A stretch of 64,000 bases of DNA from Ulva prolifera (taxonomy: Eukaryota > Chlorophyta > Ulvophyceae > Ulvales > Ulvaceae). The stretch spans positions 9,194,985 to 9,258,984 of the forward strand of contig CM041196.1 of the NCBI GenBank assembly GCA_023078555.1, written 5' to 3'. This document shows positions 34,809 through 63,625 of the stretch, in pieces. The translations under genes were made by a program, and so were the position numbers. The notes under the pieces were generated by a model, which saw nothing but the letters and a program-made list of their open reading frames with translations, was not told the origin of the DNA and did no database searches. The stretch's first letter is position 1. Each line of letters starts with the position of its first letter.

Positions 34809-37800
34809 TCAGTCTGTGAGCACATGGCCGAGGCCGCTGAGCAGCGGCGCCACAGCCGCCTCTGCACCGCATACACGGCCACGCGTGTACGGATCGGCGC
34901 GCAGAAACACCCGCAGCCGGCACAGCCGCGGCAGGGCCTCCAGCACCCCGACCACCTCCCGCAGGCCCGCCATGTCCTCGAACATGTGCCGGATGTTGAG
35001 CGCCTCGAGGCTGGTCATCTGCCGCAGGAGAGCGGCGAGCGCAGCGGCGTGCGGGGGCGCGATGATGTTGTCGCTGATGTCGAGCTCCCGCACCCCCGGG
35101 CCCCCCGCGGCAGAGGCCTCGACGAGCGCCTGGAGAACCGCGCACACGCCCGCGTGCGTCGCGTCACTGCCTTCGATGGCAAGCCGTGTCAGGCCCGTGA
35201 TGTAGGGCAGCTTTGCCACCTGCAGGAGGCCCACGTCCCGCAGCCAGTTCCAGCCTACGCTCAGCGAGCACAGCGCCGGGGTGGCGGCAAGCAGCTCGAG
35301 CAGGCCTGGGATCAGCTGCCTGCCTAGGTGAGCAGCGCAGCTGCGCTGGCAGTACCCCGTCAGGTCGAGCGCGGCCAGCTGGGTGAGGAGCTGCCCATTC
35401 CCGCGGGCGAGGTTGCCGTGCAGGCGAGAGACAGGCAGGTATGTGTCACTGTATCCCCACAGGCCAAGCGTGCTGAGGCTCGTGAGAGCTGTCAACTCCG
35501 TCGCCGCGCACAGGCCGAGCACCAGCTCGGCGCCGTCAGAAGGCTCTGCCAGCAAGCCCACATCTGCGCCGACGTACAGCTCCCGCAGGCCCGTGAGCTG
35601 CTTCACGGCGCGAATGACCCGCTGCGTCACGGCCGGATGCTCAACCACAGGCACCAGCGTCAGCGACGTGAGCCGCGTCAGCTGCGACAGCCCGGTTGCT
35701 CGAGACGCAGACGGCAGGCAGAAGCACTCCATGAGTGACAGCTCCGAGAGCTGAGTCAGCGTGGCCACGTCGCTGACGAGGCGCGCCAGCGCCGCACGAT
35801 CCAACGCACCCCAGTGGTCGGCAACGCAGTCCACGCGGATGCGGAGAGCCTGAAGTGCGGGCAGGGACTGGAGCGCCGCGCCCAGCTCCAAAGGGCTCAG
35901 GTACATCGGCTCGGCGGCAGATATGCTGAGCTCCCGCAGCGTGCGCAGCTGCGCCAGCGCGACACACCACCGCGGCGGCTCCGGCGCGGCCGCGTTCGAA
36001 AAGCGCCTGTACACAACCCCGCTGAGACACAGCGTCAGCTGCGTCATGCAGACGCCGGTGGCCGGGGCCGGGGGCGGAGGTACGGACGGGGCAAGCTCAG
36101 TCTGGGAGGGGCCTGCACCGGCGCCTGCTGCATGCGTGCGCGGAGAGCGCCGCACACGCGCACGCTTTGCGGCCGGCTCCTGATCTGCGCCGCTACCCTC
36201 ACGCAGCGGCGCCGGGGCAGCAGGTGGGTGCCTCCTGGAATGCCTTGGTTCTGATGAGGAGACAGCACCAAGGGTTGCATCGGCAGGGGAGGGGCCGGCG
36301 GGGTCCCAGCCGCGCTCGGAGCTGCCCCCGGCAAGCGGCGCCGCCGCCGCGAGCAGTCGGAACAGGATCGATGCGCAATCCGGTCCGCATGTGTGAGGCG
36401 CCTCGCGATCGGCCAGGACTGCCCGGCTGGCAAGGGAGAGCCGCGGCGGCGCGCCGGCCTGTGTGCCGGGGCCGCGGTCAGAATGCAACGCGCACGTCTT
36501 GCCGCAGGCGGGCAGGGGCGGCAGCACGAGAGCGTCGCCGGCGCAGCACGCCCGCGCGATGGCCGGGTGGAAGGTGGGTGGAAGCAGCTGCACGAGGCGC
36601 GAGAGCTGCTCGCCCGCGGGCTCGCGGGGGCACGTGGCGGAGAAGGGGTAGCTGCCACCACGCCGATCCATCGCGGCCATCACGGCCGGCCAGAAGCGTG
36701 GGGCCATGGAGCGCGTCATCTGCACACGCATGCACATGCATGCCAGTGCCCCCTCGCCACTCGCAACCCGAACATTCCCGCAGATTCTGCGGCTTTATTC
36801 GTGAAGACGAATGCATCATGCACACGCACAGCAACCCCTCCAGGACGTCATCACAGCAGTGTGCAGGGTCGAGATGTCGGCTCGAGAGCTGTCCATCCAT
36901 GATTTGTGGTGGGTTCCATCCGGTGCCGGGCTCAGCAGCTGCAGTTGCTACACGCACCATGGGGAGACCCCTGCAGTCAGTAGCGGAGCATGGAAGTCCA
37001 GTCTTTTCATGGCTCTACCATTGATTTGCCACAGGGGGCGATGGCAGTGCACGGGAGGCACCGCACCTGTGCCGCCCTGGTAAGTTCCTCCTCTGATGGT
37101 TGGGCTGAAGCAGCCACACCCGCGCCGCCTCTCACCAGCGCCAGGAGGAGTGACCGCGAGGCGGCGGCCACCGTGACGGAGTCTTTCAGAAAGTCCGCAG
37201 CCTGCATGCACACGCCCCATCCCGCTGTCCTTTCAGCATGAGATTGAGCCGGCCTCGGCCCTTGTAGCAGCTTCTGGGAGACCCCCCCCCTCCCCCATGA
37301 GACAGTATATTGTCATGCAATGTTTACTCCGGACCGCTGTGATGTTAATGTGGTGGAGAGATCGAGCAGTACGCTGTGTGAACCCCCCCAACAGTGCGTG
37401 GCCTGACGATTCGATTTGATGCGATGTGTTCGTCACTGACAGCGACGAACACATTGCCGTCACGATGCTAACACACACCTCTCGACTATCTCCGACATAA
37501 TATTCCAAAAGGCGTGCTTTGAGTGCTTAGCCAGGAGCATCCCGTCTTGCGCTGGCCTGAGAACGACAACATCGCTCACATATATCCAGTGACGCCAACG
37601 ACACGGGTGGCCAGGTAGGTCTACGCTGCATCATCGAGGAATCAACGTACCGTCAGCGCATCGAGGAGCAGGTTGTCCTGCAGCTCGACGTACTCATCGG
37701 CGCCACCGTCCGAAGCCTTATCCTGCTGTGCAAAAGCCAGCCATGCCAAGACCTCCGCCACGGACAGCGGCAGCGGCAGATCAGCTGTAGACTCTTGCTG

Positions 37801-37947
37801 GAGCAAATCCTGGATCAAACTGCATCGCTGGGCACAGGCTAGCGGTACATCCAGATCTTCTACAAGCGGGGTCCCGGACACGATGGTTGTCGTGCCGGAG
37901 GACAACCTCAGACATGTCATATTTAACGGTTGATCCAGAACTTCCAT
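34809..37947 (-). CDS. SKP1/BTB-like plus LRR protein, gene B (intact, about 780 aa)
   Basis: Exon 1 is 37651-37947, exon 2 37067-37201 and exon 3 34809-36719, all phase 0. Exons 1 and 2 give CLRLSSGTTTIVSGTPL, SLIQDLL, ADLPLPLSVAEVLAWLAFAQ, then LLDALT joined to AADFLKDSVTVAAASRSLLL and PSEEELTRAAQ. This matches SKP1 (IKLQSSDG, TIKTML, DPVPLPNV, TLFELILAANYLDIKGLL, TPEEIR). Exon 3 starts MTRSMAPRFWPAVMAAMD, has a Cys-containing LLPPTFHPAIARACC module, then QEPAAKRARVRR (NLS-like), then about 14 RNI-type LRRs (LCLSIGWNWLRD-like units) to HVLTD. The likely role, inferred, is a nuclear ubiquitin-ligase adaptor and receptor. Start chosen at the first Met before the SKP1-like strand. Confidence 0.7.
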
Positions 37948-38942
37948 CGCATCAAACTAAAATCTAAGTTGGTACTTCACTGCTCCCGAGGCAGGCTTGT
38001 GCAAACACAATGCCACCACGCAGGACAAGATCTGCATGTCTGTTTGTCCTACGAACGGAACATCAATTCCACAACAAAAATCCAGCCGGCTGCTACATGC
38101 AGATCTCAGACTCCCAGTGTCAGCTTCAGGAGCGGCTACGACGGTTCTGCCATTGGCGGCTGTCGCGCCATTGCTGATCCGGCCCTTCCGCCACATCTCC
38201 TGCAGATGTTCTGCAGGCCAAGGGAAAGCAGGCAGCGGCAGCCTGCATGAAGGTCTCCACCCCAACGCATGTGAATTTGTCCAGGTAGAATTTTGAACCA
38301 GAACTGAATCAACTGAACGCACAGCAGAGCTGGGGAAAGCATCCGTCACATATGAACTGGAACCGAACACTGCCCTATGGATCTGCATTGCTGTCGTCAC
38401 GACAAAGTACGGTTGGCCCAGCGCAGGTGCCACCGCACCCCATGAGCATCTTCAGCACCACGCGCTTCCACAGATCTGATCATTGTGACGCTTGCCAATG
38501 CAGTGCTGACAATGCACTGGTAGCCTGCCAGCACTCGGGACCCTTGTGGCTGGCTGCCCTCCACGCAAGCTGGGGCAATGCGCGCCATGGGCCACCGCAG
38601 TGCAGTGCAGCCAGTCTGCAGCGCCTGTGCATCTGCAGCATGTGTCACCTCAGCATGTGCACACACACACACACACACACACACAGTTTGTGAGGCGCGA
38701 GTGTCGCAGCCCTCAAAGCACACGTGCGCCTCACAGCGCGCAAAAACTGCCGAGCTCACAGCAGTGTAATGCAGTGCTGCAGCTGCAAAAATCACGAGCA
38801 GCTCGGCCACGCATTCGCAAGCAGCAGTATACCTGGACCACCCGATGATCCCACAAACTCCTCGAGACGACCCGCTGCGCTCTCCTTCTGCGCACATACT
38901 CCACCTGTGCACAGCTCCCACTGCCGGCATGCACTTTCACGG
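37948..38942. other. Intergenic stretch between genes B and C
   Basis: Contains a (CA)13 microsatellite (38660-38685). Otherwise no recognisable gene; should hold the gene B promoter and the 3' flank of gene C. Confidence 0.6.
38660..38685. repeat. (CA)13 microsatellite
   Basis: Perfect dinucleotide run in the spacer between genes B and C. Confidence 0.97.
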
Positions 38943-41900
38943 TCAGTCTACAAGCACATGCCCGAGGCCAGTCAGCAGCGGTGCCACAGCCGCCTCTGCG
39001 CCGCACAGGCGGCGGCGGCGCATGTACTGGTCGGCGTTTAAGAAAACCCGCAGGCGGCGCAGCCGCGGCAGGGCCTCCAGGGCCCCGACTACCTCCCGCA
39101 CGGCCGCCATCTCCGTGAACATGTGCCGGACGTTGAGCGCCTCGAGGCTCGTCATCTGCCGCAGCACAGCGCCCAGCGCGGCCGCATCCGGCGCCTCGAT
39201 GGAGTTCCCGCTGATGTCGAGCTCCTGCACCCCCGGGCCCCCCGCGGCAGAGGCCTGGACGAGCGCCTGGAGAACCGCGCACACGCCCGCGTGGGATGCG
39301 TCGCAGCAGTCAATCGCGAGCCGCGTCAGGCTTGGAACGCATGGGAGCTCTGCCAGCTGGAGCAGGCCTGCGTCGCGCAGCCAGTTGTGGCCCAATCTCA
39401 GCGAGCGCAGCGCGGTGGTGGCGGCTAGCATCCGCAGCATGCATGACACCGGCCACTTCCCTCCGCTGCGCTGGTGACATCCGGTCAAGTCTAGCGCGGC
39501 CAGACGGGAGAGGAGGCGCTCATTCTCGCTGGCAAGGCGGTAGTACAGGCTCCGTAGTAATGGGCATGCAATAGGGGCCGACTCCGGACAGGCCTGGCGT
39601 GCTGAGGCTTGTCAGCGCGGTGAGTTCGGTCGCAGCGCAGAGACCCACCACAAGGTGCACTCCGGCGGCGGGATGTTCCCACGCGCCCATGTTTGCTCCC
39701 ACGCGCAGCTCCCGCAGCCCAGTGAGTGCCCTCACGGCGCGCATGAACGGCTCCGGCGCGGCCGATCGCTCAACTAGCGGCTGCAGCGCCAGGGACGTAA
39801 GGCTCGTCAGCCGCGACAGCTCGGTCACTCGCGCCGTGAGGTCAGGCTCGCCGAGGCAGAAGCACTCGATGAGTGACAGCGCTGAGAGCTGAGTCAGCAT
39901 GGCCACTCTGCTGACTAGGCCCGCCAGCGCAACGTTAACGTACCTCAGGTCACTCCAGTCCCCGCCATTGCATCTGCTACAGTGGATATGGAGCGCGTGC
40001 AGGGCGGGCAGGGTCTCAAGGGCCGCGCCGAACTGCGGAGGGCTCAGCTGCATCGGCTCAACGGCGGAAACGCTGAGCTCCCGCAGCATGCGCAGTTGCG
40101 CCAGCGCGACACACCACCGCGGCGGCTCCGGCACGCCCGGGCTCCCGCGGCCCCAGTACTCCTCCCAACTGAGACACAGCGTCAGCTGCGTCACGGCATT
40201 GACGGCAGTCGGAGGAGACCTTGGACTCAGGGGCGCGGCAAGCTCGGCGTGCGAGGCCCCTGCGGCGGCTCCTGGTACATGCGTGTGCTGGGGGCGCTGC
40301 GTACACCTGCGCTGTGCGGCGGGCTCATGATCGGTGCCACTCCCTTCTGGCACCGGCACGACTGCCACAGGTCGTTCCGTGGAGTGCATACACTCCGATG
40401 AGTAGACGGTGCCACCGCCCGCATTCACAGGGGAGGGGCCGGCGGGGTCCCAGGCGCGCTCGGAGCTGCCCACGGCGAGCGGCGCCGCCGCCGCCAGCAG
40501 GCGGAACAAGACCGATGCGCACTCCGGCCCGCACATGCCGGGCACTGTGTTTCGGGCTGTCGTGAGTGATGTCGTGAGTCTGGGCCCGTCTGGGGCGTCT
40601 GAGCTGCCTCTGCGGAGCTGCGGCGGCGCGCCGACCCGTGTGCGCGTGCCCCGGTGCTTAGCGCACGTATCCGCGCAACGGGGCAGTCGGGGGAGGATGA
40701 GGTGGCTGCCGCTGCAGCATGCCTGGGAGACGGCCGGGTGGAGGGTGTGCGGAAGCAGCCGCACGAGCCGCGAGAGCTGCTTGCCAGAGGGCACGCGCAA
40801 GTCTGTGGCGGAGAAGGGTTGCTTTCCGCCGCGCCACTCCACCGCGGCGACGATGCTCGGCCAGAAGCGCGGGGGCACCGAGCTCGTGATCTGCACATGC
40901 ATGCGTGCCCCTGTCGCCACTCGCATATGCATGCTGAACGTTCAGCAGGGTGTATGCATGAAGGCGCATCATGCACATGCACAGCTCCTCTTACGAACTT
41001 CGTCCGGGCATTTTCCAGGTCGGCGATGTCTGCTTGAAATCGAGACGCGCCCGCACACGGTTTTTTGCTAGGTCCTGGCTGATGTCAATTCAACTGCGGT
41101 CCGGACATCCCACCACGGAGATTCCCAACGGGCATTTCCAGATCAGCTGCGCTAGGATGCACACAAGGGGGTCGTCGAGGTGAACGGGAGGTCACACCTG
41201 AGCTGCTCTTGCGTGCTCCTTCTCTGATGGGACGGCAGGGGCTGCCTTCATCTTGCCGGCTCTCACCAGCACCAGGAGGAGTGTCCGTGAGATGGCTGCT
41301 GCCGTGACGGAGTCCTGCAGAAAGTCTGCCACCTGCACAACCCACATCTCTGAGTTTGAGAGCTTCATCCTAAAGTCAGTGCCTATCAACATTACAAGCA
41401 GCTTCTTATACCGTGTGGCCATGTGCAAGCTTTGGAGGCTAGTCGATTGCTTGGTAAGGACGCAACAGCCTTCCGCAAGATGAGCTCTTGCAAGCGGCCC
41501 GTGGCGTAGGATATTTGCAGCGGGATGTTTATGGCGGGCTACGGGCTGTGTTGGCTTCCCTTGTATTACAGCCATGTTGAATCGATTTAAAAAAAAATCC
41601 GTGTGCTACACGTTGCAGTGCATGCACGTGAAGAGCCACAGAATCACATCCCTGTTATCACGAGAACACATATGTCATGACCATCGTTTATACATATCTG
41701 TGGGAAGCTTACTCTCAGTGCATCCAGGAGCGTCTTGTCTCGCTTGCTTATGAGCTGAGTACCGCTGTGGCCATCTTCTGCAGCTGTGCATGCCTGGGCG
41801 CACACTAGCCATGCTTTAACTTCTGCTATCGAGAATGGCACGGGCATGTCGACATTCGAGCTGTCGTCGTGTTTGTAGAGTTCCGCGATGACACCGCTTC

Positions 41901-42024
41901 GCTGGGCGAACGCGCCTGGCACGGCTAGAACCTCCTCTAGGCATACAAACGATGCCGATCGAGATGAAAGGCGAAGAGCAACAGTACATGAGAGTTGATG
42001 TTTCGTGTCCATGCTATCATGCAC
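38943..42024 (-). pseudogene. SKP1/BTB-like plus LRR gene C, one frameshift
   Basis: Exon 1 is 41713-42024 (VALRLSSRSASFVCLEEV, DMPVPFSIAEVKAWLVCAQ, TLLDALR), exon 2 41198-41332 (VADFLQDSVTAAAISRTLLL) and exon 3 38943-40890. Exon 3 is open from 40890 to about 39565 and again to 38943 in another frame. Its length is a multiple of three plus one, so a single extra base (or two missing) near 39555-39575 breaks it between GLSGVGPYC and CPLLRSLYYRLASEN. All other domains are present: HEPAAQRRC in place of the usual NLS, LRRs, and the HVLVD end. It is either a young pseudogene or a sequencing error; splice sites and coding pattern look well kept. Confidence 0.68.
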
Positions 42025-44460: not shown

Positions 44461-47400
44461 TCAATCCATCTGCACATGCTCGAGGCCAGCCAGCAAGGGC
44501 TCTGCAGCTTCAGCACTCGCAGCGCCGCAACGCCCACACACCCCAGGGGGGCTCGGCAGCCGCAGGCGGCAGAGGCGCGGCAGTGCCTCCAGCGCAGGCA
44601 CCAGCTCCTTCAGGCCCCCCGGCCCATCAAACACGCCCCGCAGGTTGAGCGCCTCGAGGGTCGTCAGCTGCCGCAGCAGGGCGGCCACCTCCGCCGCATG
44701 CTTTGGGGCGACGCAGTTGCTGCTGATGTCGAGCTCCCGCAGCCCCTCTCCCCCCGCCGCAGCAGCTCTGACCGCAGCCTTGAGCACCGCAGCGGCGCCG
44801 GTGAGGGTTGCGTAGTTGCCGTGGAGGTCCAGCTTTGTCAGTCGCGAGATGAAGCGGGCGATGTGGGCCAGCGCGTCATCGCCGAGGCGATAGTATCTCA
44901 GGCTCAACCACCGCAGTGCTGGAAGATCGGCGAGAAGGCCGAGCAGAGCCGTGACGATCTCCTGGCGGCGGCCGTCGATGGCACAGTCTAGGTTCAGGGC
45001 CGTCAGGCGAGCCAGCAGCGGGGGATTCTCATGGCGGATCCAGTGAAGCAGTCTTCCAATCACACAAGCCCCACCGCCGAAGCTAGACGGCAACTCGAGC
45101 CGTGTCAACGCCACGAGCTCAGTAGCGGCGCACAGCTGCAGCGTGACCTGTGCAGCTGTCGCGTGCTCACCACTCACACACGTGTCCATCTCGGCATGGA
45201 GGCGCTCCAGCACTGCCATCTGCTTGACCGCATGAACAAGCACGTCGCTGCCTTCAGGGCCCATGACAAGCCCCTTGACAGCAAGCGAGGTGAGCCTCGT
45301 GAGCCTGGACAGGCGAGAAACCTCTGGCAAGGAGACCTTGCTCGTCGGACCTCTCTCATCATCCGAGCGCATGGTGCCAAGATAGAAGCAGTTTGCCAGT
45401 GAAAGCGCCGTGAGCTGTTCCATTGCGGCGACAGCGCTGATGAGACGCGCTAGCGACTCACGCCGCGCAAACGTGCAGTCATCATCGCTGCAGCACTCGC
45501 AGTTGATGCTCAGCTTCTGCAGGGCTGGAAGCGACTGCAGCGCTGCCCCGAACTCGGGAGGGCTCAGCCGCGAAGGCTCGGACGCTGTGACGCTCAGCTC
45601 CCGCAGAGTGCGCAGCTGCGCCAGCGCGGTGCACCACCGCGGGGACTCGTATACACTGCCGCCCCAGAAATTCTGACAGCCATCACCTTCAAGGCTCAGC
45701 ACCAGCTGGGTGGTGCGCGGGCCAGCCCACTGCGGCAGGCTGGAAGCGGCTTTGTGTGGTGGCAGCAAGGCCACGGTGGCAGCTGCCGGGGAACGCTTCA
45801 CTGAGGGCTCCTGCCGGAAGCCCGTGGTGGTCTGTAGATTGCAGTGGTTGGAACAGGACTCTGAGGTAGCTGAAACGTGAGAGCTGGCATCTTCTGCAGG
45901 TGGCTCGGAGGCGCGGCCATCTTCGGCGCTTCGCGACACTACAGGAGCCAACAGAGTGAGGAGCTGGAACAGTGTAGAGGTGCGGTCGGGCCTGTGTGGG
46001 GTTGCGGCAACGTCGTCTGCAGTCACACCGGCTGCAGCGGTTTGGTCAGCATCCGTTGCATCCTGTCTGGCTCGGTGGGTTGCGCAAGTGTCCCCGCACG
46101 CCCGCAGTGGTGGTATGCTGATGGAGGTGCCATTTCTGTTGCAGCTGCAGCACGCTTGGAGGGCGGTGGGATGGAAGCTAGAAGGGAGCAGCCGCAGGAT
46201 CCTCTGGAAGGCTGAGCTGTCAGGCTGGCGGTCGTATGGAGGGTTGCAAGAGAAGGGGCTGTCGCAGCATCTCCGATTCACCGAGGCAAAGATGGTGGGC
46301 AGGCAGTGCTCGGGCACAGCATGTGCGATCTGCAAACATGCCATGAGTCAGGACAATCATGCGACGTTGATCAATCAAGACGCATGCCTACCTCTGCACA
46401 ATTAGGTGAGACAGGCCTGGGCAGTGGGGCTGACGATGGGAGACGAGTATGGATGGCTAGTAGTAGAATGCTGTTGACCACAGTGTGGGGACATGGACAG
46501 ACACTCAGCAGATATCAGTAAGCAGCAAGGCGCACTTTCAACGCCCTCGCACACTCCGCGTCTGTTGGTGGAATCAAGGGACAAGTCTGCGGCTCCAGCA
46601 TTGCCAGCAGGAGTGCCCGGCAGAGGGCTGCTACTGTAGTTGAGTCCTGAAGGAAAACGGCAGCCTGCATGCGCACCAACCTGCCCGCTTGTTCAATGGC
46701 TGCTTCAAGTTGAACTGTTCAAATGTGGTTGTGTCTGCAGAAGCGACAGGTGTTTAGCGATCGCTTCCTCGTGAACCTGCCACTTGGAAAGACGTTGGTA
46801 GATCTAGTGATTGTTCAAATGGTCACTGTCTCAGCAAGGCAAAAAAACGCAACATGGCAAATAGTCTTCTGTGCGCCAGGGACGACCATGATCACAGATG
46901 CAACATTTTGAGCCGCAGAATTGCTTCAAACATGAGATCTATACCGGGACTGCGAGGGCGGTGACCTGTCGCGAGCATCGCGAACGATTAGAACCATGCC
47001 CTGATCCAACCCAGCAATACTGCTTGCCTAATGATGTAAAGCTTTACTTCTGGAATTGTTTGCATAACAAGAGCACTGAGAGACTTCGTGAGCGCTTGGT
47101 CAACACAGGCTGGTCAATCGAAACTCCTTTCGCTGTGCATGAATAACCTATGATAACATGGAAGCTCCTGATCGCGAAATATTTACATCTCGCACCTTCA
47201 GAGCACTCGTCAGCGTGTCGTCGTCCTGTTCGAGGCATGACATTCCCTTGTCCACAACGGTCTTGACTTGCTGAGCGCACGCCAGCCACGCCTTGACCTC
47301 TGACATCGTCAACGGCAGCGGCAGATCAGCTTCCTTGCCATCGTTCACTGTGGCAAGGTCTTCAATGAGCTCTGATCGGCGAGCACACCAGTGTGGTATA

Positions 47401-47483
47401 TCCAGGGCCTCTGTTGCGGACACGAATGACACTCGATCGGCAGATAGTCGAAGACTGAATGAGATCTGATCACAGGGACACAT
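44461..47483 (-). CDS. SKP1/BTB-like plus LRR protein, gene D (intact, about 761 aa)
   Basis: Exon 1 is 47196-47483 (SLRLSADRVSFVSATEALDI, ADLPLPLTMSEVKAWLACAQ, DDDTLTSALK), exon 2 46536-46664 (AAVFLQDSTTVAALCRALLL; 43 codons) and exon 3 44461-46329. Exon 3 opens IAHAVPEHCLPTIFASV, has LLPSSFHPTALQACC and RACGDTCATH, a weak basic motif (EPSVKRSPAAA), then LRRs and ends LLAGLEHVQMD. I started translation at MCPCDQISF because sister genes begin just before the same strand, but the frame stays open up to 47909. Exon 2 has AAV instead of AAD, otherwise the SKP1-like core is complete. No breaks seen. Confidence 0.7.
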
Positions 47484-48605: not shown

Positions 48606-48639
48606 GGGGTGTGGGCGCGCCCACGCCCCCTCTAGATCC

Positions 48640-49271: not shown

Positions 49272-49579
49272 TCAGGGCGAGCCTGCAGCATTGCACACAT
49301 CCAGCACACACTGGCGGCGTAGAAGCGGCAGCGACTCCACGGCGGCCACCAGCTCCCGTAGGCCCCCCGGCTTGTCAAATACGCTCGGCAGGTTGAGCGC
49401 CTCGAGGCTCGTCAGCTGCCGTAGCAGGGCGGTCACCTCCGCCGCAGCCTCCACGGGGACGTCGTTGCCGCCGATGTCGAGCTCCCGCAGTCCCTCTGCG
49501 CCCGCGGCAGCGCCTCTGGCCACAGCTCTCAGCATATGCTCGGTGTTGCGTGTGGACCCTTCGAATGCGCAGCCCTGCA
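49272..49579 (-). pseudogene. C-terminal LRR fragment D'
   Basis: The minus strand encodes only the last two or three LRRs: HMLRAVARGAAAGAEGLREL, DIGGNDVPVEAAAEVTALLR, QLTSLEALNL, then LRRQCVLDVCNAAG and a stop. The ending matches gene E (RRQCVVDVLNNAGPS), so it is a partial duplicate of E. The frame is unbroken and begins after CATGCAG, so it could also act as an alternative last exon; with no upstream part it is treated as a fragment. Confidence 0.72.
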
Positions 49580-50931: not shown

Positions 50932-53900
50932 TCAGTGCAGAGAGGGACCCGCGTTGTTCAGGACATCCACCACACACTGGCGGCGCAGGCGCGGCAGGGC
51001 CTCCACGGCAGGTACCAGCTCCCGCAGGCTGCTCCCCAGCCCGGCAAACACGCCCTGCAGCTCCAGCGCCTCAAGGGTCGTCAGCTGCTGCAGCAGGGCG
51101 GCCACCTCCGCCGCGGCCTCGTGGGCGACTTCGTTTTTGCTGATGTCGAGCTCGCGCAGCCCCTCTCCCCCCGCCGCAGCGGCGCTGACCGCAGCGCTCA
51201 GCACCGCATTGACGCCGCGGTGGGTCGCACGGTTCGACTGTACGTCCAGCTTTGTCAGCCGTGAGACGAACGGAGCTACACGCACCAGCGCCTCGTCCCT
51301 GAGCTTGTTGTAGCTCAGGCTCAATGACTGCAGTGCTGGAAGGCTGGCGATAAGGCCTATCGCAGCAGTGACCTGCTTCTCACATTTGCAACGGATGGCC
51401 CAGTCCAGAGACAAGGAGCGCAAGCGGGCCAGCAACGCGGGGTTCTCGCGCCGAACTCGCGGGAGCAATCCCACAATGAGCTGACACCGCATATCGCCCC
51501 ACTCCCTCTCCGCCAGCTTGAGGTGCGTCAGCGCTGTGAGCTCAGTAGCTGAGCACAGCTTGAGTGTGACCTCGGCAACGTCCTCAAGCTCCTCGTCGCT
51601 GTAATCACAATCATCTGTGTCCATTTCAACATGAAGGCGCTGCAGTGCTGTCAACTGTTTGACAGCATGAACAAACTCGTCGACGCATTCCGTGCCCATG
51701 ATTGGCCCCTGGACAGTCAGCGAGGTGAGCCTGGTGAGCCGGGACAGCTGAGAAACCTCCGGCAAACAAACCTCCTCCATGCGACCTGCCCAATCCGGCG
51801 AGATCATGGTGCCGAGAAACAAGCAGTTCCTCACCGACAGCTCCGTGAGCTGTTCCCGTGTGGCCACTGAGCTGATGAGATATGCCAGCGACTCTCGCCG
51901 AGTGTTCTCATTACGGACTCGGTTGTGACGGGCCCTGATGTCACAGCAACCGCACTCGATGCTGAGCTTCTGCAGAGCTGGCAGGGACTGCAGCGCCATC
52001 CCAAAGTCACTGGGGCTCAGCTCAGAAGGCTCGTCTGCGGACACGGTCAGCTGCCGAAGGGTGCGCAGCTGCGCGAGTGCGGCGCACCACCAGGAGCACG
52101 TGAATATATTCCTGCCCCGAGACTTCTGGCGGCGATCATGTTCGAGGGTCAGCTCCAGGCGGGTGACGGCAGGGCCACCCCACTGTGGCAGCTCAGACGC
52201 TGCCCTTGGGAGACGGAGCAAATCCCTGTGTGCCTTTGCCGGAGAGGTCTTGCCGACACAAATGCGCTTCGCAGCAGGCTCCTCCCGGTCGCTGTCATGA
52301 CTGCAGATCTGTGAGACGCCGGAGTTGTGAGAGCGCTGCTCATCATGTGCAGGTGGCCTGGTGGCGCCACCTGCAGGAGACACAGCTGTGTCTCCAACGC
52401 ACTGGGAGCTGCGGTCGGGTAGTTGTGCCAGCAGCATGAGGAGCTGGAACAGCATGGAGGTGCAGTCTGGCTCACACGTGTTGCCTGTGTTGTCGGATTC
52501 AAACACGTTAGCATCATCTTCGTGGTGTTCTGAGTCTCGCAGCCGTCCGCATGTCTCATTGTAGGCCTCCAACGCTGGTAACCTGATGGACGTGCCATTT
52601 TCGTTGCGGATGCAGCATGCTCGCAGGATGGTGGGATGGAAGCTGGAAGGGAGCAGTCGCAGGATCCTCTGGAAGTGCGCCCTGTCAGGCCAGCATTGGA
52701 AAGGACGGGTGGAAGACAAGGGCCTGTAGCAGCGCGCCACGTCGATCGCGGCAAAGATCGATGGCAGGTGATGCTGGGGCACAGCGTGCACGATCTGCAG
52801 AACATCACATGAATCAAGCTTCGCAACATCGCTGGCAAGTCTGTACAGAACGATCTTGCATGATGCATGCCCACTAGTCAAAGCTGTGCAGCAGGAAATG
52901 GAGAATCGAACATGGTGTATTACAATCGTGCAGCTTTGAGGAATCAGGATGGCAAGGTTCAGTATGCTGTCACTTCGAATGCTCAGGAGACATCGATGGG
53001 CAGCAGGCTGCACCCGGGAAGCCCTCATACGCTCCGCTTCTGACGGCGGACTCCATGTATCAGTTTCACGTCCCAGCATTGCCAGTACGAGAGCCCGAGA
53101 GAGGGCTGCTGCTGTAGTCGTGTCCTGGAGAAAGTCTGCTGCCTGCATGCCACCTGCCCATTCGGCGTACGTGACAAGAGTGTCTCGATCATACTGTGCC
53201 CATCTAATGAATCATGGTATGTGGGCTTGCAAGTCGCAAGAAGGCCAGATCATGCAAACTCCTCCTGTAGCTGGTGATTGTCCCTTTCTTGCTCAACAGC
53301 TTGTCAGCAAGGCTGACAGATGCAGCGGGTGTCACAAAGTTTTCCTGTGCACATTGAATGAAATCTCAAAGAAGGAGGCACACAACCCACGCAGTCTGGC
53401 TGCAAAGATCAATCACGGTCAAAGACTACGAGCGTGGTCAATCAACTGTAAACACGCATCGCGCACGTTCAAAACGTCTCGCATGCCATCACGCAGAAGC
53501 ATTGCGGTCAGAGTGCAGAACATTGCTGATTCTAGATACAGTGAAAAACCACACTCCGTGACAAACGCGCGAGAGTGAAGTCCTAGGCTGCCCCACCAGG
53601 CTCGCGTTGTCGATCCTTACGTTGGGACACTATTTTGAATTCAGCTGTGGTAACAAATTATATGAAGGCAGTACCTTCAGTGCATTTGTCAGTGTGTCGT
53701 CGTCCTGTTCGAGTGGTGATTGGAAAAGGCATTTGCCACGTTCGACAACAGCCTTGACTTGCTGAGAGCACGCGAGCCACGCCTTGATCTCGGCCATGGA
53801 CAATGGCAGTGGTAGATCGACATTCATGCCGTCGTTCAGCGCCTCGAGGTCATCAAAAAGCTTGCAACGTTGCGCACACCAGTCTGGGATGTCAACGACC

Positions 53901-53974
53901 TCTGTCGCTGACACAAACGACGTCCGATCGGTAGAGCGTCGCAGATTGAGTACGGAAGTATCAGAATTGCGCAT
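50932..53974 (-). CDS. SKP1/BTB-like plus LRR protein, gene E (intact, about 763 aa)
   Basis: Exon 1 is 53675-53974 (LRRSTDRTSFVSATEVVDI, VDLPLPLSMAEIKAWLACSQ, DDDTLTNALK), exon 2 53014-53142 (AADFLQDTTTAAALSRALVL) and exon 3 50932-52794 (IVHAVPQHHLPSIFAAID, LLPSSFHPTILRACC, EEPAAKRICVGK, LRRs). The C terminus differs from most sisters: RRQCVVDVLNNAGPSLH instead of a GxxHxxxD end. Intron 2 (52795-53013, 219 nt) has no stop and a length divisible by three, so the frame runs open from exon 2 to the end; a retained-intron protein with 73 extra residues is possible. Confidence 0.7.
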
Positions 53975-54691: not shown

Positions 54692-54742
54692 ATGTCAATG
54701 TCCAATAGGCTACGGCTCAGTACATTTAGATTTACTTAACTT
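54692..54742. repeat. Dispersed 48-bp repeat, copy 2
   Basis: Matches 27705-27752, same orientation, with a handful of mismatches (TACGGCTCAGTACATTTAGA here). Confidence 0.85.
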
Positions 54743-54839
54743 GACGTGCATGGGCCCCTGCGCAAGAAGCATCCCAGCGACTATTCAACCATGACTGTGG
54801 GGGCCCTCGCGTCAGCACACCGAGCGATTGCAAATCTCT

Positions 54840-55250: not shown

Positions 55251-55559
55251 CCATGCATGTTCCCAGGCAGTGCGTAGCGCCCACAGATCGACATGACTTC
55301 AAGTCATCACATGCATGATATGGATGGATGGGTCCGCCGAGCTGAGTCAGTGTTTCAAACGACTGGCTGCGAGTTGACCCCCGAATGCCGCTCAGCTTGG
55401 CACGCATACCGTGTCGCCTGAAGTGGGTAGGGTTGGCGGTGGGCATGCAGGACATGCTTTTGAAATGCAAGTCACGTTACGGCATTATCAGTCAGGGCAC
55501 ACTGCGCAGCAGAAGATGACAGCGCGCACTCCGTATGGTCAGGTTATGTGCGCATGTGT

Positions 55560-55660
55560 CAGCGCAGTCAGCATTGCCACTGTAGAACACTCGGGGCAGG
55601 ACCGGCCCGACTCATTGAGGGTGTCCAGCACACGCTGGCAGTGGAGAGCTGAGGTCCCCA
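55560..55660 (-). pseudogene. E-type C-terminal remnant 3' of gene F
   Basis: The minus strand reads CQRVLDTLNESGRS, aligning with gene E's RQCVVDVLNNAGPS. Only this tail is left; the LRRs before it are lost. Confidence 0.5.
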
Positions 55661-55674
55661 GGCGCATGGACGGT

Positions 55675-55772
55675 CTCCTGGCGGCCGCCCAGCACGCCAC
55701 CCGGCAGGCCGCCCAGCACGCCACGCAGCGCAGCACGCCCAGCACGCCACGCAGCGCAGCACGCGCACCTCG
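55675..55772. repeat. CAGCACGCCACGC minisatellite
   Basis: Imperfect head-to-tail units of CCCAGCACGCCACGCAGCG type, four to five copies. Intergenic. Confidence 0.88.
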
Positions 55773-56062
55773 TCTTGCGCTCCTCAGGCACCGAAAGTCT
55801 CGCGGAGCCCTGCAGACCAGTGTTGGGTCATCGGGCCCGATCACATAGAGCAATTCCAAATATTCACACCTATTTTCGGGGTCACAGCCCTGGAAATGCT
55901 GCAACGCGACCCAACACTGCTGCAGACTGTGGACTCGTGGACACATTGACTCGGACATGCACCGGTAGCAAGCAAACATACTCTGATATCTCCTTGGCAC
56001 AATGGTCTAGACAACTGGTGATGGCACACGGCCCACAGTTCAAGGGTGGCACACACGTTCGC

Positions 56063-59000
56063 TCAGTCGATCTTCACGTGCCTGAGGCCAGCCAGCAGCG
56101 GCGCATCAGCCGCGTCTGAAGTGTCACCGTGGTGCCTGGCGCCACGGGTATCAGGCAGCCGCAGGCGGCTGAGGCGCGGCAGCGCCTTCACGGCAGGCAC
56201 CAGCTCTTGCAGGCCCCCTCCCCATTTGAAGATGCTCCGCAACTTCAGCACCTCGAGGCTCGTCACCAGCCGCAGCACGGCGGCCACCTCGGCGGCAGCC
56301 CTCAAATCGACATGGTTTTCGCTGATGTCGAGCTCCCGCAGCCCCTCCGCACCCGCGGCAGCGGCTCTGACCGCAGCCTGCAGCACGGCAGTGATGCCGA
56401 GGTGGGTCGCGCGGTTGCCGTAGCCGACGTCCAGCTTTATCAGCCGAGAGATAAAGGGAGCTAGGCGCACCAGCCCCTCATCCTGGAGGCGACAGGTACG
56501 CATGCTCAAACACCGCAGTGATTGAAGGTTCGCGAGGAGGCGTAGCACGGCAGCGATCTGCTCGTTATCATACCCTCTGATGGCAAGGTCCAGGTTCAAG
56601 GCGGCCAGGCGACCCAGCAGCGACGGGTTCTCTCGGCCGATCCGCCCTGGCAGTGTATCAATCACATGGCGTCCCATGCCAAAACGGAAGCCAATCGGCA
56701 GCTCGAGGCGTGTCAGCGCGACGAGCTCACTTGCAGCGCACAGCTGTAGCATCATCTCGCCAGCAGCGTCATCTTCTCCACTCGTAGCTGTGCACATCTC
56801 AGCACGCAGGTGCTCGAGCGCCGTCATCTGCTTGATCGCATGAACCAGTGCATCACTGCCCTCCGGGCCCGCCATAGGCCCCTCGACAACCAGCGAGGTG
56901 AGCCTCGTCAGCCCGGACAGCTGAGATATTTCTTGCACGGAGGAGTTCCCCACGGGGCCGTTCAGATCGTCCGCACGCATGGTGCCAAGGTAGAAGCAAT
57001 GCATCAGTGACAGAGCGGTGAGCTGTTCCAGTGCAGCCACAGCGCTGATCAGGCGCGCCACCGGCGCATGCCGGGTGTATTGAGCATCCTCATTGATGCA
57101 GAGCCCACCGTCGATGCTCAGCTTCCGGAGGGCGGGGAGGGACTGCAGCGCCGCGCCGAACTGCAGGGGGCTCAGCCGTAACGGCTCCAATGCAGAGACA
57201 CTCAGCTCCTGGAGCGTACTCGGCTGGGCCAGCGTGGCGCACCACCGGGGGGACTCATACACGTGCACGTATCCGCGTTGCATGCTCCGTATGTCATCGT
57301 TGTCGAGGGACAACACCAGCTGCGCGACGCCAGCTCCTCTCCGGAGTGGCTGCTCGAACGTCGCCGTTGCGGAAGCGTGCACCACCTCGGTCGCTGTTGC
57401 TGGGGTGTGTCGGGTTGAACACAGGTGCTTTGTGGCGCGCCCCTGCTGGACGCCTGGCTCCGGCTGACGATCGCTGTGACGGGTCGGCGAATGCGTCAAC
57501 ACGCTGTCCAGAGAGCTCATTGCAGGGGCCGCTTGCAGGGCGACGTCGCGTGTGTCCCGGACGTCCTCATGGCTGCAGCGTGCCTCGGGCATCAACGCAG
57601 TGAGGAGCTGGGACAGCAAAGAGTTGCAGTCTGGGCCGCATGTGCCAGAAGCGGCACGGTCGCCGATCGGGTGCACCGAAATGTACCTGGAAGGGACCCC
57701 TGCTCGCTTCCTGGCGTGGTGAGCTGCGCAAGCTTGCACGCAGGGCGGCAGGGGTGGTATGCTGACCAAGGTGCCACTTTCATTGCAGCTGCAGGCGTGC
57801 AGGATGCTGGCCTGGAAGGTGGCAGGCAGCAGCCGCAGGAGCCTCAGGAAGGTGAGGCCGTCGGGCAGGCGGCGGGAAGGTCGGTCAGCAGAGAAGGGGC
57901 TGTCTCCGCGGGCACGTTCGCGGTCGATCGTGTCAAAGATGGCGGGCAGACAGTGCGGGGGCACAGCGTGAGCGATCTGCCACTTGTCAGGAGAGGCTGC
58001 TCACCACAGGTAGGAGCAAGCTGTACGCATGGGGTGGATCGTCTATGACCCATGATCAGAGTGTGAGAACTTGCTGAAGTAGGCCAACAAGTTGAGGCGT
58101 CAACAAGGTCAACTAGTTGAGGTCTGAGTTGAGGTCTGAGGTCAACAAGTTGAGGTCTGACAATCATGGCCAGACATCTGTTCACTAATTTGTTGATATG
58201 ACGCAGGCGAGACAGGTAGCACCACGAGAACAGTGTGCAACACATACGCATGAACATCGACACAGCAAACCCAAGCTACCTGTTGGCCAGTGTGTAAAGA
58301 GCTGGGCAGACACTCAGCAAGGGGTGGCAGGACGCACTCGGGAGGCCTCTGCACAATCCGCTTCTGTAGGAGGCCGTCGCAGGTTAGTCTCACGGCCCAG
58401 GATTGCTGGCAGGAGAGCCCGGGAGAGGTCTGCCGCTGTTGCTGAGTCCCGCAGGAAGTCTGCAGCCTGCATGCCACCCGCCTGACCACTCATCTGTACT
58501 TGCAGATATGTCTACAGCTTCTGTGCACATACAAGCAGTATCTGTGTTTCTGGTCCCATGTGACCCGAACAAAGGTCTGCTCAAGCACGTTGATGTAGGC
58601 ATGGTTGACTCTTGTGGTGGATGACGTCTGTGCAGGGGAAAGAAAATGCACATGATTGTGTGTACTGCCTCCCATACCCCACAGCTGAACAAACGCAGAT
58701 GCAGACACTGCAGACTCGAATCCCGGTTTCCAGGATCAGTCTTGTATCTGGACTGCGAGCGCAATCAAAACGAGTGGCCACCTCGGGACGCATCGCGAGC
58801 AGTTGACAGCGTACCCGTGCCTCAACGCGGTGGCACAATTTGCAATATGCCGATCAATTATTATTTGTTGGGTGCTTTTGAAGCAAGTAAACAGACAATC
58901 GCGCGAGGGCGCGCAGGCGGGATCAGCTGCACCTAAACGGCTGTGTCGACCCATGCTTCAACGAACAATGTCGCACTCAGCTGGAATGACTACAGACAAG

Positions 59001-59299
59001 CTCCACACCTTCAGTGCGTCTGTGACCGTGTGGTCGTCTAGAGTCAGCCGTGTGTGTGCCGAGTTGACAACAATCGTCCATCTCTGAGCGCATGCCAGCC
59101 ACGCCTTGACCTCAGACATGGACAGTGGGAGTGGCAGGTCTACATCTGAGCCATCCTGTACGCCTGCGAGGTCTTCAATCAGCTCGCATCGACGGGCACA
59201 CCGGGTTGGGATGGCTAGCGCTTCTGTCGGGGACACGAACGACACAGATCCATCCGCAGATCGACGCAGCCAGAGCGAATGTTGATCGGGTGTATCCAT
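56063..59299 (-). CDS. SKP1/BTB-like plus LRR protein, gene F (intact, about 777 aa)
   Basis: Exon 1 is 59009-59299 (MDTPDQHSLWLRRSADGSVS, VDLPLPLSMSEVKAWLACAQ, DDHTVTDALK; frame open to 59410), exon 2 58338-58466 (AADFLRDSATAADLSRALLP) and exon 3 56063-57976 (IAHAVPPHCLPAIFDTID, LLPATFQASILHACSC, CVQACAAHHARKR). The usual NLS is replaced by GRATKHLCSTRH. LRRs follow to LLAGLRHVKID before the stop. The middle module keeps the LLPxxF and ACxC pattern although the FHP motif is lost. No frame breaks. Same strand, exon lengths (exon 2 is 129 nt in D, E, F and G) and phases as its neighbours. Confidence 0.7.
58083..58160. repeat. GTTGAGGTCTGAG-type short tandem repeat in intron 2 of gene F
   Basis: Four to five imperfect units containing CAACAAGTTGAGG and TTGAGGTCTGAG, inside the proposed intron 57977-58337. 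Confidence 0.85.
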
Positions 59300-60689
59300 C
59301 CTAGACAGGCTGCGAAGTGGGATGGCCCTACGCGATTGCTCCAGCTGGTCAAGCTTGAAATAGCAGCACGATAAATAGCGGAAACACTGCATGCAGTAGC
59401 CAGACTGCAACAGCGTTGCCGGTGGTCACTTTCCACTGTGTACAGAAATCACGTGTGGGTGGGCAGAGTTCAGTGTCGACACCGCTCAGAGCCCTCGTCC
59501 TGCTGAGATACGGAAGGCCGTGCACTGCAGCATCCCCGATGAATCTTTCGCATGCGTGCTGCAGGCACTCTGAACGTCACGCGTCTGCTGGCTTTGAACT
59601 TTGTCATGTGGGTTCAAGCGGGTGCACTACTTGCCGCTCGGGACTATCATCCTGCCGGTCTCAGCTGAACTACTGCCGCGGGCCTGCGGATATGTATCGG
59701 AAGTCTGGGATTGTCATCTCTCGGGAGCAGGGGTTGCGGTATGATGCGGGCCTGGAGGACGCGATCCTGCCGGACTGAGTTGTGAGTGCGGTTGTAGTGT
59801 TCGTGTGTGTGTGAGTGTATGTTGCTGTTGATTCGGATGAGATTCGGTTTCGGTGTTTGTTTTCTCCCGTTCACTCTTTTGTAATATACTGCCGCGGGCC
59901 TGAGTGCATCAGGCGACCTCCGCGCGGGATCTGCAATGCACGCTATGGCATCGGTTTGTCAATGTGCATCGCAGATTCGGCGTGATTCCTTCTGCCCATG
60001 TATCTCAGAGATAGAAACAAATAAAGTCATGCATAAATTACACATTCCTGTGACTGTAGTTGGCCAACGGCTGCAGCGTCACTGCACATTACACACATGG
60101 CCATGGAGTCCTCTAGGCATACCACCGGCAGCGCGGCGGATCCACAAGCAAGCCTGCGTTGTGGTGCGTGTGGAACTGTACCTTTCTAGCAGTATGCGTA
60201 GCTCAGCACAGGCAGCACATTGCAGCATGCACGGGGAATAGCTGAATTCAGTGTCATCTGCAGATGCGCATCACGATCAAATTTGGTGCGGGTAGCAGCC
60301 CGGACCCACCATGGCAGATGGCAGCAGGCGATCTGACTTGCATACATGCATGCACGGCTCCTCGATGCACACCGCGGCTCCAAGGCCCCATTCCTCAGGG
60401 CGGCACGGAGCGCTAGCCCACACAGGCCACATCGCTACCAGAAGCGCGCCATGCGCGTGCATGGCCTGTTGCTGTACTGCGTTAATGAATATATATTCAA
60501 ATGAAGGACACAGCGGCATGTCGGAGACTCGAGATCTGTGCGGCTACATGTGCCACTGGCATGCCAGATGCCATGGCATCGGCCACGATCCCAGGGGTGC
60601 ACCATGGGAGATTTCAAAGCGGTTTGTGCTACACGCAAAGGGTGGCAGACACCAACGGCCCTCCGCGCTCCCCCTCCCCGAGTCTCACA

Positions 60690-61060
60690 CACCTGATCCC
60701 CATGCATGCATGGCATGCTATGTGCACCCATGGGAGCCCTCCTCCGAGTCGTGCACCATCCCTCACCAAGCGCCTCACACTGCGGCCGATCTCTGGGATG
60801 CTTCCTTGCAGCTGCACTCTGAGTGGCCTGGCGGCGGCCGGCCTGCTGGGCACGCCCCTGACGTGCAGCTGTCGGAGCGTGCGCATCAACGCGTGCATGG
60901 TGGCCAGGCCGCCACTGCACACAGCACGGCACGCACGCAGCGGTGCGTGTCGGCTGCAGCGCTGCCCCTGCCCCCGCGGTCAGTCAACATCCACTGGCAG
61001 GGCGCAGGCGGCGCTAGCTGTGTAGCCTGGGTGAAGCCCCCATCGCCACGGAGTCTTCAG
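60690..61060. repeat. 0.35-kb intergenic repeat, copy 4
   Basis: Shares GGCCGGCCTGCTGGGC with copy 2 and GTCAGTCAAC...GCCTGGGTGAA with copy 3. It lies about 0.3 kb 3' of gene G. A 295-codon + strand frame crosses it but is not shared by the other copies. Confidence 0.65.
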
Positions 61061-61074
61061 TGGCCAGCAGCGGA

Positions 61075-61170
61075 GTCGCAAAAGGACCTTCTGAGCAGGG
61101 GTGATCTCCGACACGCCATCCAGCGCCCCAAACCTGCGCCGCAAATCAAACAAGTCAAGCGCGGCATTGC
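61075..61170 (-). pseudogene. Degenerate LRR C-terminal remnant 3' of gene G
   Basis: The minus strand reads ALDLFDLRRRFGALDGVSEI, then TPAQKVLLRLR. This aligns with the family phrase LEALNLRGMFDGPGGLQELV, PALEALPRLGRLR. Short and diverged, but in the same relative place as other C-terminal remnants. Confidence 0.45.
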
Positions 61171-61260
61171 TGACTTACGGGCCCTGGAGCCTGTGTGATC
61201 ATGACTGATTCTGACTAGGGTGTGCACTGATAGCAAGTGAATGCATGTCTCCATGGGAAA

Positions 61261-61313
61261 GTCAGCGCTCAACGCGCACAATAACATCCCAGGTCAGCGC
61301 TCAACGCGCACAA
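61261..61313. repeat. 21-bp direct repeat pair
   Basis: GTCAGCGCTCAACGCGCACA plus A occurs at 61261-61281 and 61293-61313, just 3' of gene G's stop codon. Any role in 3'-end formation is unknown. Confidence 0.9.
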
Positions 61314-61338
61314 TTCAAGTTTGGACACACACCTTTGC

Positions 61339-63625
61339 TCAGTCCATCTGCATGTGCTTGAGGCCGGTCAGCAGCGGCTCAACATCCACAGTCGCAGTGC
61401 CGCCAGGGTGACAGATGCCAGAGGTCTCAGGCAGCCGCAGGCGTCCGAGGCGCGGCAGCGCCTCTAGAGCAGGCACCAACTCCTGTAGGCCCCCCGGCCC
61501 GTCAAACATGCCCCGCAAGTTCAGCGCGTCCAGGGTCGTCAGCTGCCGCAGAAGGGCGGCCACCTCTGCCGCGCGGTCCGGCGCAATAAGGTTGCTGCCG
61601 ATGTCTAGCTCCCGCAGCCCCTCTGCGCCTACGGCAGCGGCGCTGGCCGCAACAAGGAGCACGGCGGTGACGCCGATGTGGGTCGCGCGATTGCCATGGA
61701 CATCCAGCGCTGTGAGGGCTGAGATGGAGGGTGCTATGTGCACCAGCGCGTCGTCCCTGAGGTCGTTGTGACGTAGGCTCAACGACCGCAAGGCTGCCAG
61801 GTTGGCAAGAAGGCCTAGCACGGCTCTGACATGCTGTTTAAGGGAGTGATACTTCTCGTAACTGCCATCGAGAGCGCAGTCTAAACACAAGGCGGTCAAG
61901 CGGGTGAGCACCGGAGGTCTGTCTCTGAGCATCCGGTCGAGCAGTGCACCGCGATAAAAGGCCTCGCCTCCACAAGAGCTGCTCGGCAGCTCGAGGCGGG
62001 TGAGCGCCACAAGCTCAGTAGCAGAGCACAGCTGCAGCAGCATCTGTACAGCAGGCGCATGTACATCACTCTTATGTGTGTCCACGCCCACATGGAGGCG
62101 CTTCAGCGCCGTCATCTGCTTGACAGCATGAACAAGCACGTCGCTGGACTCTGGGCCCATCATGGGCGCCCTGACAGCCAGCGAGGTGAGCCTCGTGAGC
62201 CTAGACAGCTGATGCACTTGGGGGAGGGGCGCCCTGTCAGTCACAATCAGGTGATCGTCGTAGTGCATGGTGCCAAAATAGAAGCAGTTGGTCATGGACA
62301 GCTCCTCGAGCTGCTCCACCGCGGCCACAGCGAAGATCAGGCGCGTCAGCGGCTGACTCCGGGCGAATTCGCATCCGTCATCGCTGCAATACTCACAGTC
62401 GATGCTCAGCTTCCGCAGGGCAGGCAGGGACTGCAGTGCCACCCCAAACTCGGAAGGGCTCAGTCGGGCAGGCTCGAGTGCAGAGACGCACAGCCTCTGC
62501 AGCGTGTGCAGCTGCGCCAGTGCGGTACACCACCGGTGGGACTCGTGTGCACTCCCGCCCCAGTAATGCTGGAAGCCATCGCCTTTCAGGCACAGCTGCA
62601 GCTCAGTGATGCCACAGCCACGCCCGTGCGGCAGCTCGATTGCCGCCCGGGGGGCTGGCAACCACCCCTTGATGGCCGGTGAGTCGCGACTCACACAGAT
62701 GCGCTTTGCTGCGGGCGCTTCCTGAAAGCCCGTTGCGCGCTGATGGTTGCTACGGACAGTCTGCGGCTGTGACTTGACAGAGTCATGAGAGGATTCAGCA
62801 GGCTCAGCCGGCGAAGCGGCGCCGCATGGGTTTCCGTCCTGATCGGGACTGCGGGTTGCTGCCGGCGCCAACAGCGTGAGGAGCCTGGGCAGGATAGAGT
62901 CGCAGTCTGGCCCACACGTGTTTACAGTGATATCTTCTGCAATCAGGTCAAGTGCAGCATCTTTGTCCTCCTCTCTTGCTTCCTCCCTGGCCTTGTGAGC
63001 TGCGCAATTCTCCATGCAAGCCCGCAACGGTGGTATGCTGACGGTGGTGCCATCGTTGCAGATGCAGCATGCTTGTAGGATAGCGGGGTGGAAGCTGGAA
63101 GGGAGCAGCTGCAGCATTCTATCAAAGCTCGCGCTGTCAGGCTGGCGGTGGCGCGGAGGGCTGGATGAGAAGGGGATGTCTTCGCTTGCCCGGTCGACCG
63201 CAGCAAAGACAGAGGCCAGGAGGTGCTGGGGCACAGCATGCGCGATCTGCAAAAGATATGCTATGATGTTTGACATGAGTCAGGCTGATCACCACTGCTG
63301 GAGTCATGCCGGGCATACAAATAGTCAGGGTGCATGCCCATGTATTGCGGCTTTGCACACACACGCGTACTCGGTCCCCAGTCCCTAGACTATATAGGTC
63401 TCATGATGATGCTGTGGTCAGGATGACAGTGATCAGAAACTGTTTGCCTAGACATGGGTAGACACTCCGACGGCTTCACAGAGCAGAAGGCCGCACCCAG
63501 GCTGCCCTTGCACGCTCCAGCTCTGAAGGTGGCCTCCAAGGGAAAATCTGAGGGCCCAGCATCGCTAACAACAGTGACTGGGACACGGCAGCTGCTGTTT
63601 GAGAGTCCTGGAGATAGTCTGCGGC
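61339..63625 (-). CDS. SKP1/BTB-like plus LRR protein, gene G (exon 1 beyond window)
   Basis: Exon 2 is 63497-63625 (AADYLQDSQTAAAVSQSLLL) and exon 3 61339-63246 (IAHAVPQHLLASVFAAVD, LLPSSFHPAILQACC, EAPAAKRICVSR, LRRs, LLTGLKHMQMD). Exon 1, with the first half of the SKP1-like fold, is expected 530-545 bases past 63625, outside the window. Support comes from 63885-63975, which resembles intron 1 of genes F and D (CAGGACTGCAGGCGCGATCA against TGGACTGCGAGCGCAATCAA). The exon 3 frame is intact. Confidence 0.7.

Follow-up and report, generated by a model that had tools for sequence, protein, structure and literature searches.

Can the adaptor and the receptor of a cullin-RING ubiquitin ligase be one protein chain that carries its own SKP1-derived module? 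The question is raised by a tandem gene family of Ulva prolifera, six members of which, named A–F below, lie in a 64,000-nucleotide stretch of DNA (the window; C1:9194985-9258984, CM041196.1). An earlier note on this DNA had proposed that exons with a SKP1-like fold are joined there to a leucine-rich repeat (LRR) receptor as a self-contained cullin adaptor-receptor. Analysis of the window and of the 88.9 Mb genome (44 contigs) establishes the exon structure of the genes and the constraint on their coding sequence, and it supports a remote kinship of the N-terminal module with SKP1. We give a probability of about 0.56 to the reading that the family consists of one-chain cullin-RING adaptor-receptors that work in the manner of BTB-CUL3 adaptors with a SKP1-derived module.

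Gene structure and coding constraint

All six genes are on the minus strand with 3 coding exons each: exon 1 of 90–100 codons, exon 2 of 43–45 and exon 3 of 620–637 (A, C–F). Intron 1 spans 380–542 bases and intron 2 206–361 bases (A, C–F), in phase 0, with GT–AG ends and at equivalent positions across the six genes. The predicted product of each intact gene is ~760–780 residues long, of which exons 1 and 2 supply the N-terminal 135–145. The layout described in the earlier note is borne out for the exon-2 and exon-3 units of all six genes and for exon 1 of A–E, but exon 1 of F lies just outside the window:

34809..36719, minus strand: member A exon 3, short helical lead-in and RNI-type LRR, stop codon included
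37067..37201, minus strand: member A exon 2, AADFL helix and PSEEELTRAAQ tail
37651..37920, minus strand: member A exon 1, SKP1-like POZ core, start codon uncertain
38943..40890, minus strand: member B exon 3, single frame break near 39.55 kb (pseudogene or sequence error)
41198..41332, minus strand: member B exon 2
41713..42012, minus strand: member B exon 1
44461..46329, minus strand: member C exon 3, RNI-type LRR in the AlphaFold model (mean local confidence, pLDDT, 70.1; predicted template-modelling score, pTM, 0.73)
46536..46664, minus strand: member C exon 2
47196..47483, minus strand: member C exon 1, AlphaFold model with pLDDT 70.1 and pTM 0.50
50932..52794, minus strand: member D exon 3, C-terminal end diverged
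53014..53142, minus strand: member D exon 2
53675..53974, minus strand: member D exon 1
56063..57976, minus strand: member E exon 3
58338..58466, minus strand: member E exon 2
59009..59299, minus strand: member E exon 1
61339..63246, minus strand: member F exon 3
63497..63625, minus strand: member F exon 2
64438-64151 (extended coordinate, just beyond the window; locus L003:1151-1438), minus strand: member F exon 1

Across all six window genes the reading frame of exons 1 and 2 stays open up to in-frame donors, and exons 2 and 3 have conserved phase 0 acceptors. Both exons could be assigned in 23 members of the family. All 23 have AG before exon 2 and GT after exon 1, the latter count being partly by construction because some exon ends, otherwise set by the ends of hidden Markov model (HMM) matches, were moved by eye as far as the conserved K|GT. 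Exon 2 has a GT after it in 20/23, the exceptions being one member truncated by the locus end and two with unclear exon ends. The 23-row alignment was drawn from places with fetched DNA and leaves out the damaged L014–L017, L010 (exon 2 not found), L025 and L030 (atypical exon 2), L028 (a near copy of L027), L036 (the same as L005), the split exon 1 in L004/L036 and a fragment in L005. The pattern AG|[AVT][AS]x[FYLVI][LF]xD, which captures the exon-2 start, occurs six times between 30 and 64 kb of the window, at the six members, never in the first 30 kb, and once per stretch in six fetched stretches outside the window; this control is only indicative because the pattern was written after the variants had been seen.

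Nei–Gojobori ratios of nonsynonymous to synonymous substitution (dN/dS) for the ten pairs of A, C, D, E and F, several of them saturated in dS, are 0.15–0.40 for exons 1 and 2 and 0.42–0.64 for exon 3. All three exons thus look like constrained coding sequence, with the LRR exon the looser one, and positive selection in the LRR is unsupported by the whole-exon ratios. A separate paralogue pair, L027/L028 with L047/L053 (C9:3.34-3.36 Mb), has a dS of 0.15 in exons 1 and 2 and 0.55 in exon 3, a contrast that suggests gene conversion or exchange between the SKP1-like and LRR exons.

The three-exon arrangement recurs at loci dispersed through the genome. Upstream of four LRR loci picked by exon 3 alone (C6:2.75, C10:0.98, C3:5.29 and C2:3.44 Mb) and at a fifth locus picked by exon 1 (C1:6.39 Mb), the LRR-exon strand carries in every case an acceptor site that leads into an exon-2 start (AADFLRD, AAQFLQD, VADFFGD, AADVLQD and AASFLQD); the HMM matches to exon 2 are weak (expectation value, E, 1e-4 to 1.4). 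Clear exon-1 matches lie on C1, C2 and C6 (E 8e-20 to 9e-9), and those on C10 (E 0.005) and C3 (E 0.6) are weak. These loci bear on whether exons 1–2 and exon 3 could instead be separate neighbouring adaptor and LRR genes that were duplicated together and never form one protein. Such a pair would fit the circumstance that the joining is read from DNA rather than RNA, and that one open reading frame (ORF) derived from ENA, P0001, starts at an ATG just ahead of exon 3. The in-frame donors and phase 0 acceptors of the window members argue the opposite, as does the linkage of the exons at isolated loci, and we consider two separate genes very improbable. Both the joining of an RNI-type LRR to exons 1 and 2 and its tandem expansion, as first proposed, hold at the level of DNA.

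Kinship of exons 1 and 2 with SKP1

Comparison of sequence profiles supports the reading of exons 1 and 2 as a SKP1-like POZ module of remote kinship. The profile of the 23 members aligns with that of SKP1 in register across most of the domain, at a probability of 3–7%; its score of 23.0 compares with 10.3 for the reversed profile and 10.7–18.2 for 21 LRR-exon windows, and was reached by 0/200 column shuffles and 1/200 block shuffles. With five dispersed members added, the probability is 46% (E 2.1e-4, 19% identity) against a target of 43 SKP1 and 2 elongin C sequences, and the match-column version scored 29.8, where 200 column shuffles reached at most 22.8 and 200 block shuffles 24.6. Given the shuffles, the reversed profile and the LRR-exon windows, we judge a chance likeness to SKP1 unlikely.

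A bridge between the family and SKP1 was identified from the SKP1 side. A genome search with the Pfam family Skp1_POZ (E<=10) gave three places: SKP1 itself (C3:341891), a gene that we take from its sequence to be elongin C (C6:4111384), and C2:4190908. Taken alone, exon 1 of the last scores 22.0–22.6 bits where the cutoff is 21.9, and appending exon 2 brings the score to 21.1. The same strand carries, further downstream, an exon-2-like stretch, Q|AADLLIDKETTADVAHLIAGRLF, at L059:1839, whose 3′ end was not located, and an LRR exon that passes three Pfam LRR cutoffs. This gene matches the family built without it at a probability of 95% (E 7e-8) and the SKP1 profile at 37% (E 3.6e-4); it had no BTB match in the Pfam scan and, compared with the PDB by sequence, found no SKP1 chain and one unrelated designed chain (E 0.98). 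Because a search that started from SKP1 led to this gene and it shares the exon 1–2–LRR layout, the link to SKP1 has a footing besides the motif reading of the earlier note.

The separate targets bear on whether the module might belong with the BTB adaptors of CUL3 and have come to resemble SKP1 in its motifs by convergence, instead of deriving from SKP1. A BTB and a repeat domain in a single chain are the CUL3 style, and an additional N-terminal strand is predicted. SKP1 scored 26.1 (probability 17%, E 1.5e-3), elongin C 16.5 and BTB 12.8; with the bridge gene included, the scores were 29.8, 16.7 and 17.6, which puts BTB slightly above elongin C but leaves SKP1 well above both. These comparison profiles are small (2 elongin C and 4 BTB sequences, four of the six entered by hand and two being this genome's BTBs). 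Under the family HMM, two BTBs of the same genome rank below both the C2 gene and SKP1, and the C2 gene passes Skp1_POZ with no BTB match. Convergence from a BTB adaptor is, on balance, improbable.

Structure prediction is consistent with a SKP1-like module. The AlphaFold model of member C exon 1 has three strands, two short helices, a strand, a long helix and a short helix, a predicted order of elements like that of SKP1. In a second look at the structural search with this model, the ten best rows were all SKP1/ASK1, at low Z. Structural alignments to SKP1 begin at model residue 16 or 17, and the profile alignment places 'sfvsatealdiPaacAqRs' on 'LISSDSKTFTVPREVAEES' of the genome's own SKP1. 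Since both start after LRLS, we read LRLS as an extra N-terminal strand; the register first proposed, LRLSxD on IKLQSSD, is off by one strand, and the motifs quoted with it are clear in C–F and diverged yet alignable in A and B. Exons 1 and 2 together would form strands, two short helices, a PxP strand, a helix, a variable linker, the AADFL helix and a PPSxxExxRA-like tail. In the AlphaFold model of member C, exon 3 opens with a short helical segment, passes through a linker of low confidence and ends in an RNI-type LRR, as F-box–LRR proteins have. An F-box in the exon-3 lead-in was considered because of a VPxHxLPxIF motif, but at E<=10 Pfam recognised no F-box in the gene models scanned, one full-length and two partial, or in exon 3 of the C2 member, and AlphaFold gives separated helices.

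The putative cullin face is similar to that of SKP1, not identical. In SKP1, Asn108 and Tyr109 contact CUL1. The Tyr109 position is aromatic in 21/23 members and the Asn108 position is Asp in 20/23; PxP is retained in 14/23, but the subsequent Asn of PxPN is not. AADFLxD, among the most conserved stretches of the module, sits at SKP1's AANYLD. Excerpts of PMC1257465 describe the Skp1 PxPN strand as participating in Cul1 interactions, and Skp1 as having low-complexity insertions past the third helix and two additional C-terminal helices.

Several results weigh against a SKP1-derived module that docks on cullins. Direct Pfam scans found no family in exons 1–2 of three spliced window models, no SKP1 or BTB family in the 23 members (BTB PF00651 0/23) and none in five dispersed exons 1; neither the window members nor those five reached the curated cutoff of Skp1_POZ (PF03931). 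PF01466, the Skp1 C-terminal domain, matched only the true SKP1 on C3. The family profile found no SKP1 chain in the PDB, only one unrelated designed chain (E 0.72). SKP1 as sole target gave lower support than the mixed target, and the cullin-face residues are only partly kept. The SKP1-like fold proposed earlier thus draws on profile comparison, the C2 gene and the exon-1 model (SKP1-like in the order of its elements, with a pTM of 0.50 and low Z against SKP1/ASK1), and it fails when window members are compared directly with Pfam and the PDB.

The partial conservation of the face also suits another possibility, that the module serves only for assembly, by self-association or by pairing with other adaptors, and that the LRR proteins are sensors or scaffolds with no role in ubiquitination. 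POZ domains have many non-cullin roles, as excerpts of PMC1257465 set out. Yet SKP1, which is dedicated to serving cullins as an adaptor, gives the closest profile, before elongin C and BTB, and one of the best conserved stretches is the very one that matches AANYLD. We regard a pure assembly module as unlikely, though a serious alternative to an adaptor-receptor.

Family size and surroundings

The six window genes described in the earlier note are a small part of the family. One exon-1 query finds 44 places in the genome, and two diverged queries bring the union to 54, a count that takes in damaged copies and three pairs repeated ~43.5 kb apart. By contig, C1 has 30, C9 13, C8 4, C2 3 and C4 2, with the remainder on C3 and C5. 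The exon-3 query has 79 genome matches, in places several per gene. An exon-3 match lies downstream on the same strand within 4 kb of 43/54 exon-1 places and within 8 kb of 47/54; the reversed arrangement occurs at 3/54, and a same-strand match upstream at 21/54 is expected because of the tandem arrays.

Searches for relatives beyond the genome returned little. The exon-3 protein found none among viral contigs or, in one pattern scan, among prokaryote genomes, both searches reaching close relatives only. In the protein database, the full-length query found four LRR-exon ORFs (8000 best candidates scored), and residues 1–250 found only the exon-3 ORF P0001 among 3838 candidates, so that no database relative of exons 1–2 was found, although at least one U. 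mutabilis protein is among the database entries.

Some copies are repeated, damaged or incomplete. In C1:9425975-9482280, three exon-1 places recur with identical scores ~43.5 kb further on, which is either a recent segmental duplication or an assembly duplication. Near-identical damaged copies occur on different contigs (C5:9754587 and C8:5992576; C8:6002002 and C2:3828477), with stops in exon 1 in three of the four and one copy ~5 kb from a contig end. At L010 (C1:9261190-9261471) exon 1 is intact, the scanned locus yielded no exon 2, and the nearest downstream exon-3 match is 4.9 kb away; this may be an exon 1 standing alone. The window also contains two exon-3 relics, and a long ORF stands beside the cluster:

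49314..49490, minus strand: exon 3 relic between C and D (LRR end only), with one TGA within a longer match
32458..33168, minus strand: second exon 3 relic, downstream of member A, carrying stops
28951-30573, plus strand: long ORF with a PIF1-like helicase match (PF05970, 52.5 bits, cutoff 25.9), possibly of mobile-element origin

Intron 2 of member E contains a short tandem repeat of CAGACCTCAACT-like units (window 58080-58160).

Proposed working and known systems

In a one-chain adaptor-receptor, the POZ module would dock on one of the alga's cullins, CUL1-type by kinship, and the faster-evolving LRR would bind targets, so that a single chain would do the job of SKP1 plus an F-box–LRR protein and offer targets for ubiquitination. 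Tandem birth-and-death expansion would yield a repertoire of specificities, plausibly against microbes. The splicing of the transcripts, cullin docking, ubiquitination and targets are inferred. A more far-reaching version, in which LRR genes of the Ulva lineage captured a SKP1 copy and became one-piece CUL1 adaptor-receptors that bypass the F-box and act as the alga's main intracellular recognition repertoire, a counterpart of plant NLRs marking microbial or viral proteins for destruction, seems to us doubtful.

A single SKP1, three cullin loci, four BTB and eleven F-box matches are present in the genome (E<=0.001; six-frame counts and hence lower bounds). That SKP1 shares 95% identity with an Ulva mutabilis protein (jgi/Ulvmu1, P0020) over 59% of the query, and 96% with a contig product, P0005. 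Because this ordinary machinery is retained, the family would be an addition to it, not a replacement. If the adaptor-receptor reading is right, SKP1, normally a free adaptor common to F-box proteins, has here been hard-wired to a receptor domain, in a repertoire exceeding the F-box and BTB matches of the same genome (54 exon-1 places, damaged ones included, against 11 and 4, all lower bounds). The family would then allow a direct test of whether the F-box is dispensable once a receptor carries its own SKP1, and would be a candidate recognition system in a bacteria-dependent seaweed, whose proper morphogenesis depends on bacteria according to the part of PMC8891106 consulted.

Similar to SKP1/ASK1 (PF03931 and PF01466), the algal module has the predicted exon-1 element order, the PxP strand, a variable linker after the third helix, the AA-x-aromatic-L helix and a P-rich tail, and SKP1 is its best-scoring profile. 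It differs in its 19% identity, the unmatched PF01466, the loss of Asn108 and of the Asn of PxPN, and the extra N-terminal strand; and whereas SKP1 is free-standing with ~160 residues, the algal module is joined to an LRR exon. As opposed to FBXL receptors (FBXL2, FBXL17, TIR1), the SKP1-like module occupies the place of the F-box, which Pfam did not find in the proteins scanned.

BTB-Kelch and MATH-BTB adaptors combine adaptor and receptor in one chain with CUL3. The self-contained design proposed in the earlier note therefore has a one-chain precedent, while the fusion and its tandem expansion stand at the level of gene structure. Like the algal family, these adaptors unite POZ and a target-binding domain and show large lineage-specific expansions (excerpts of PMC1257465), but the algal module is closer to SKP1 than to BTB and has an LRR in place of Kelch or MATH. 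The same excerpts report 43 BTB-LRR proteins in the chlamydial endosymbiont UWE25, which share with the algal family the fusion of a POZ-type domain to an LRR; the consulted part of PMC4209131 describes expanded F-box, BTB and LRR families in Parachlamydiaceae, with tandem duplication and dN/dS <1, as seen here. Those proteins are bacterial, many of them predicted to be secreted into the host, whereas the algal genes bear introns. In the open-licence PMC literature, covered by titles and abstract starts and partly by the best 20 of more results, we found neither a SKP1–LRR fusion nor this algal family. Single-chain POZ adaptors are already known; a SKP1-derived module that is joined to an LRR and has multiplied in an alga, absent from what that literature and the protein database returned, would be a new variant of them.

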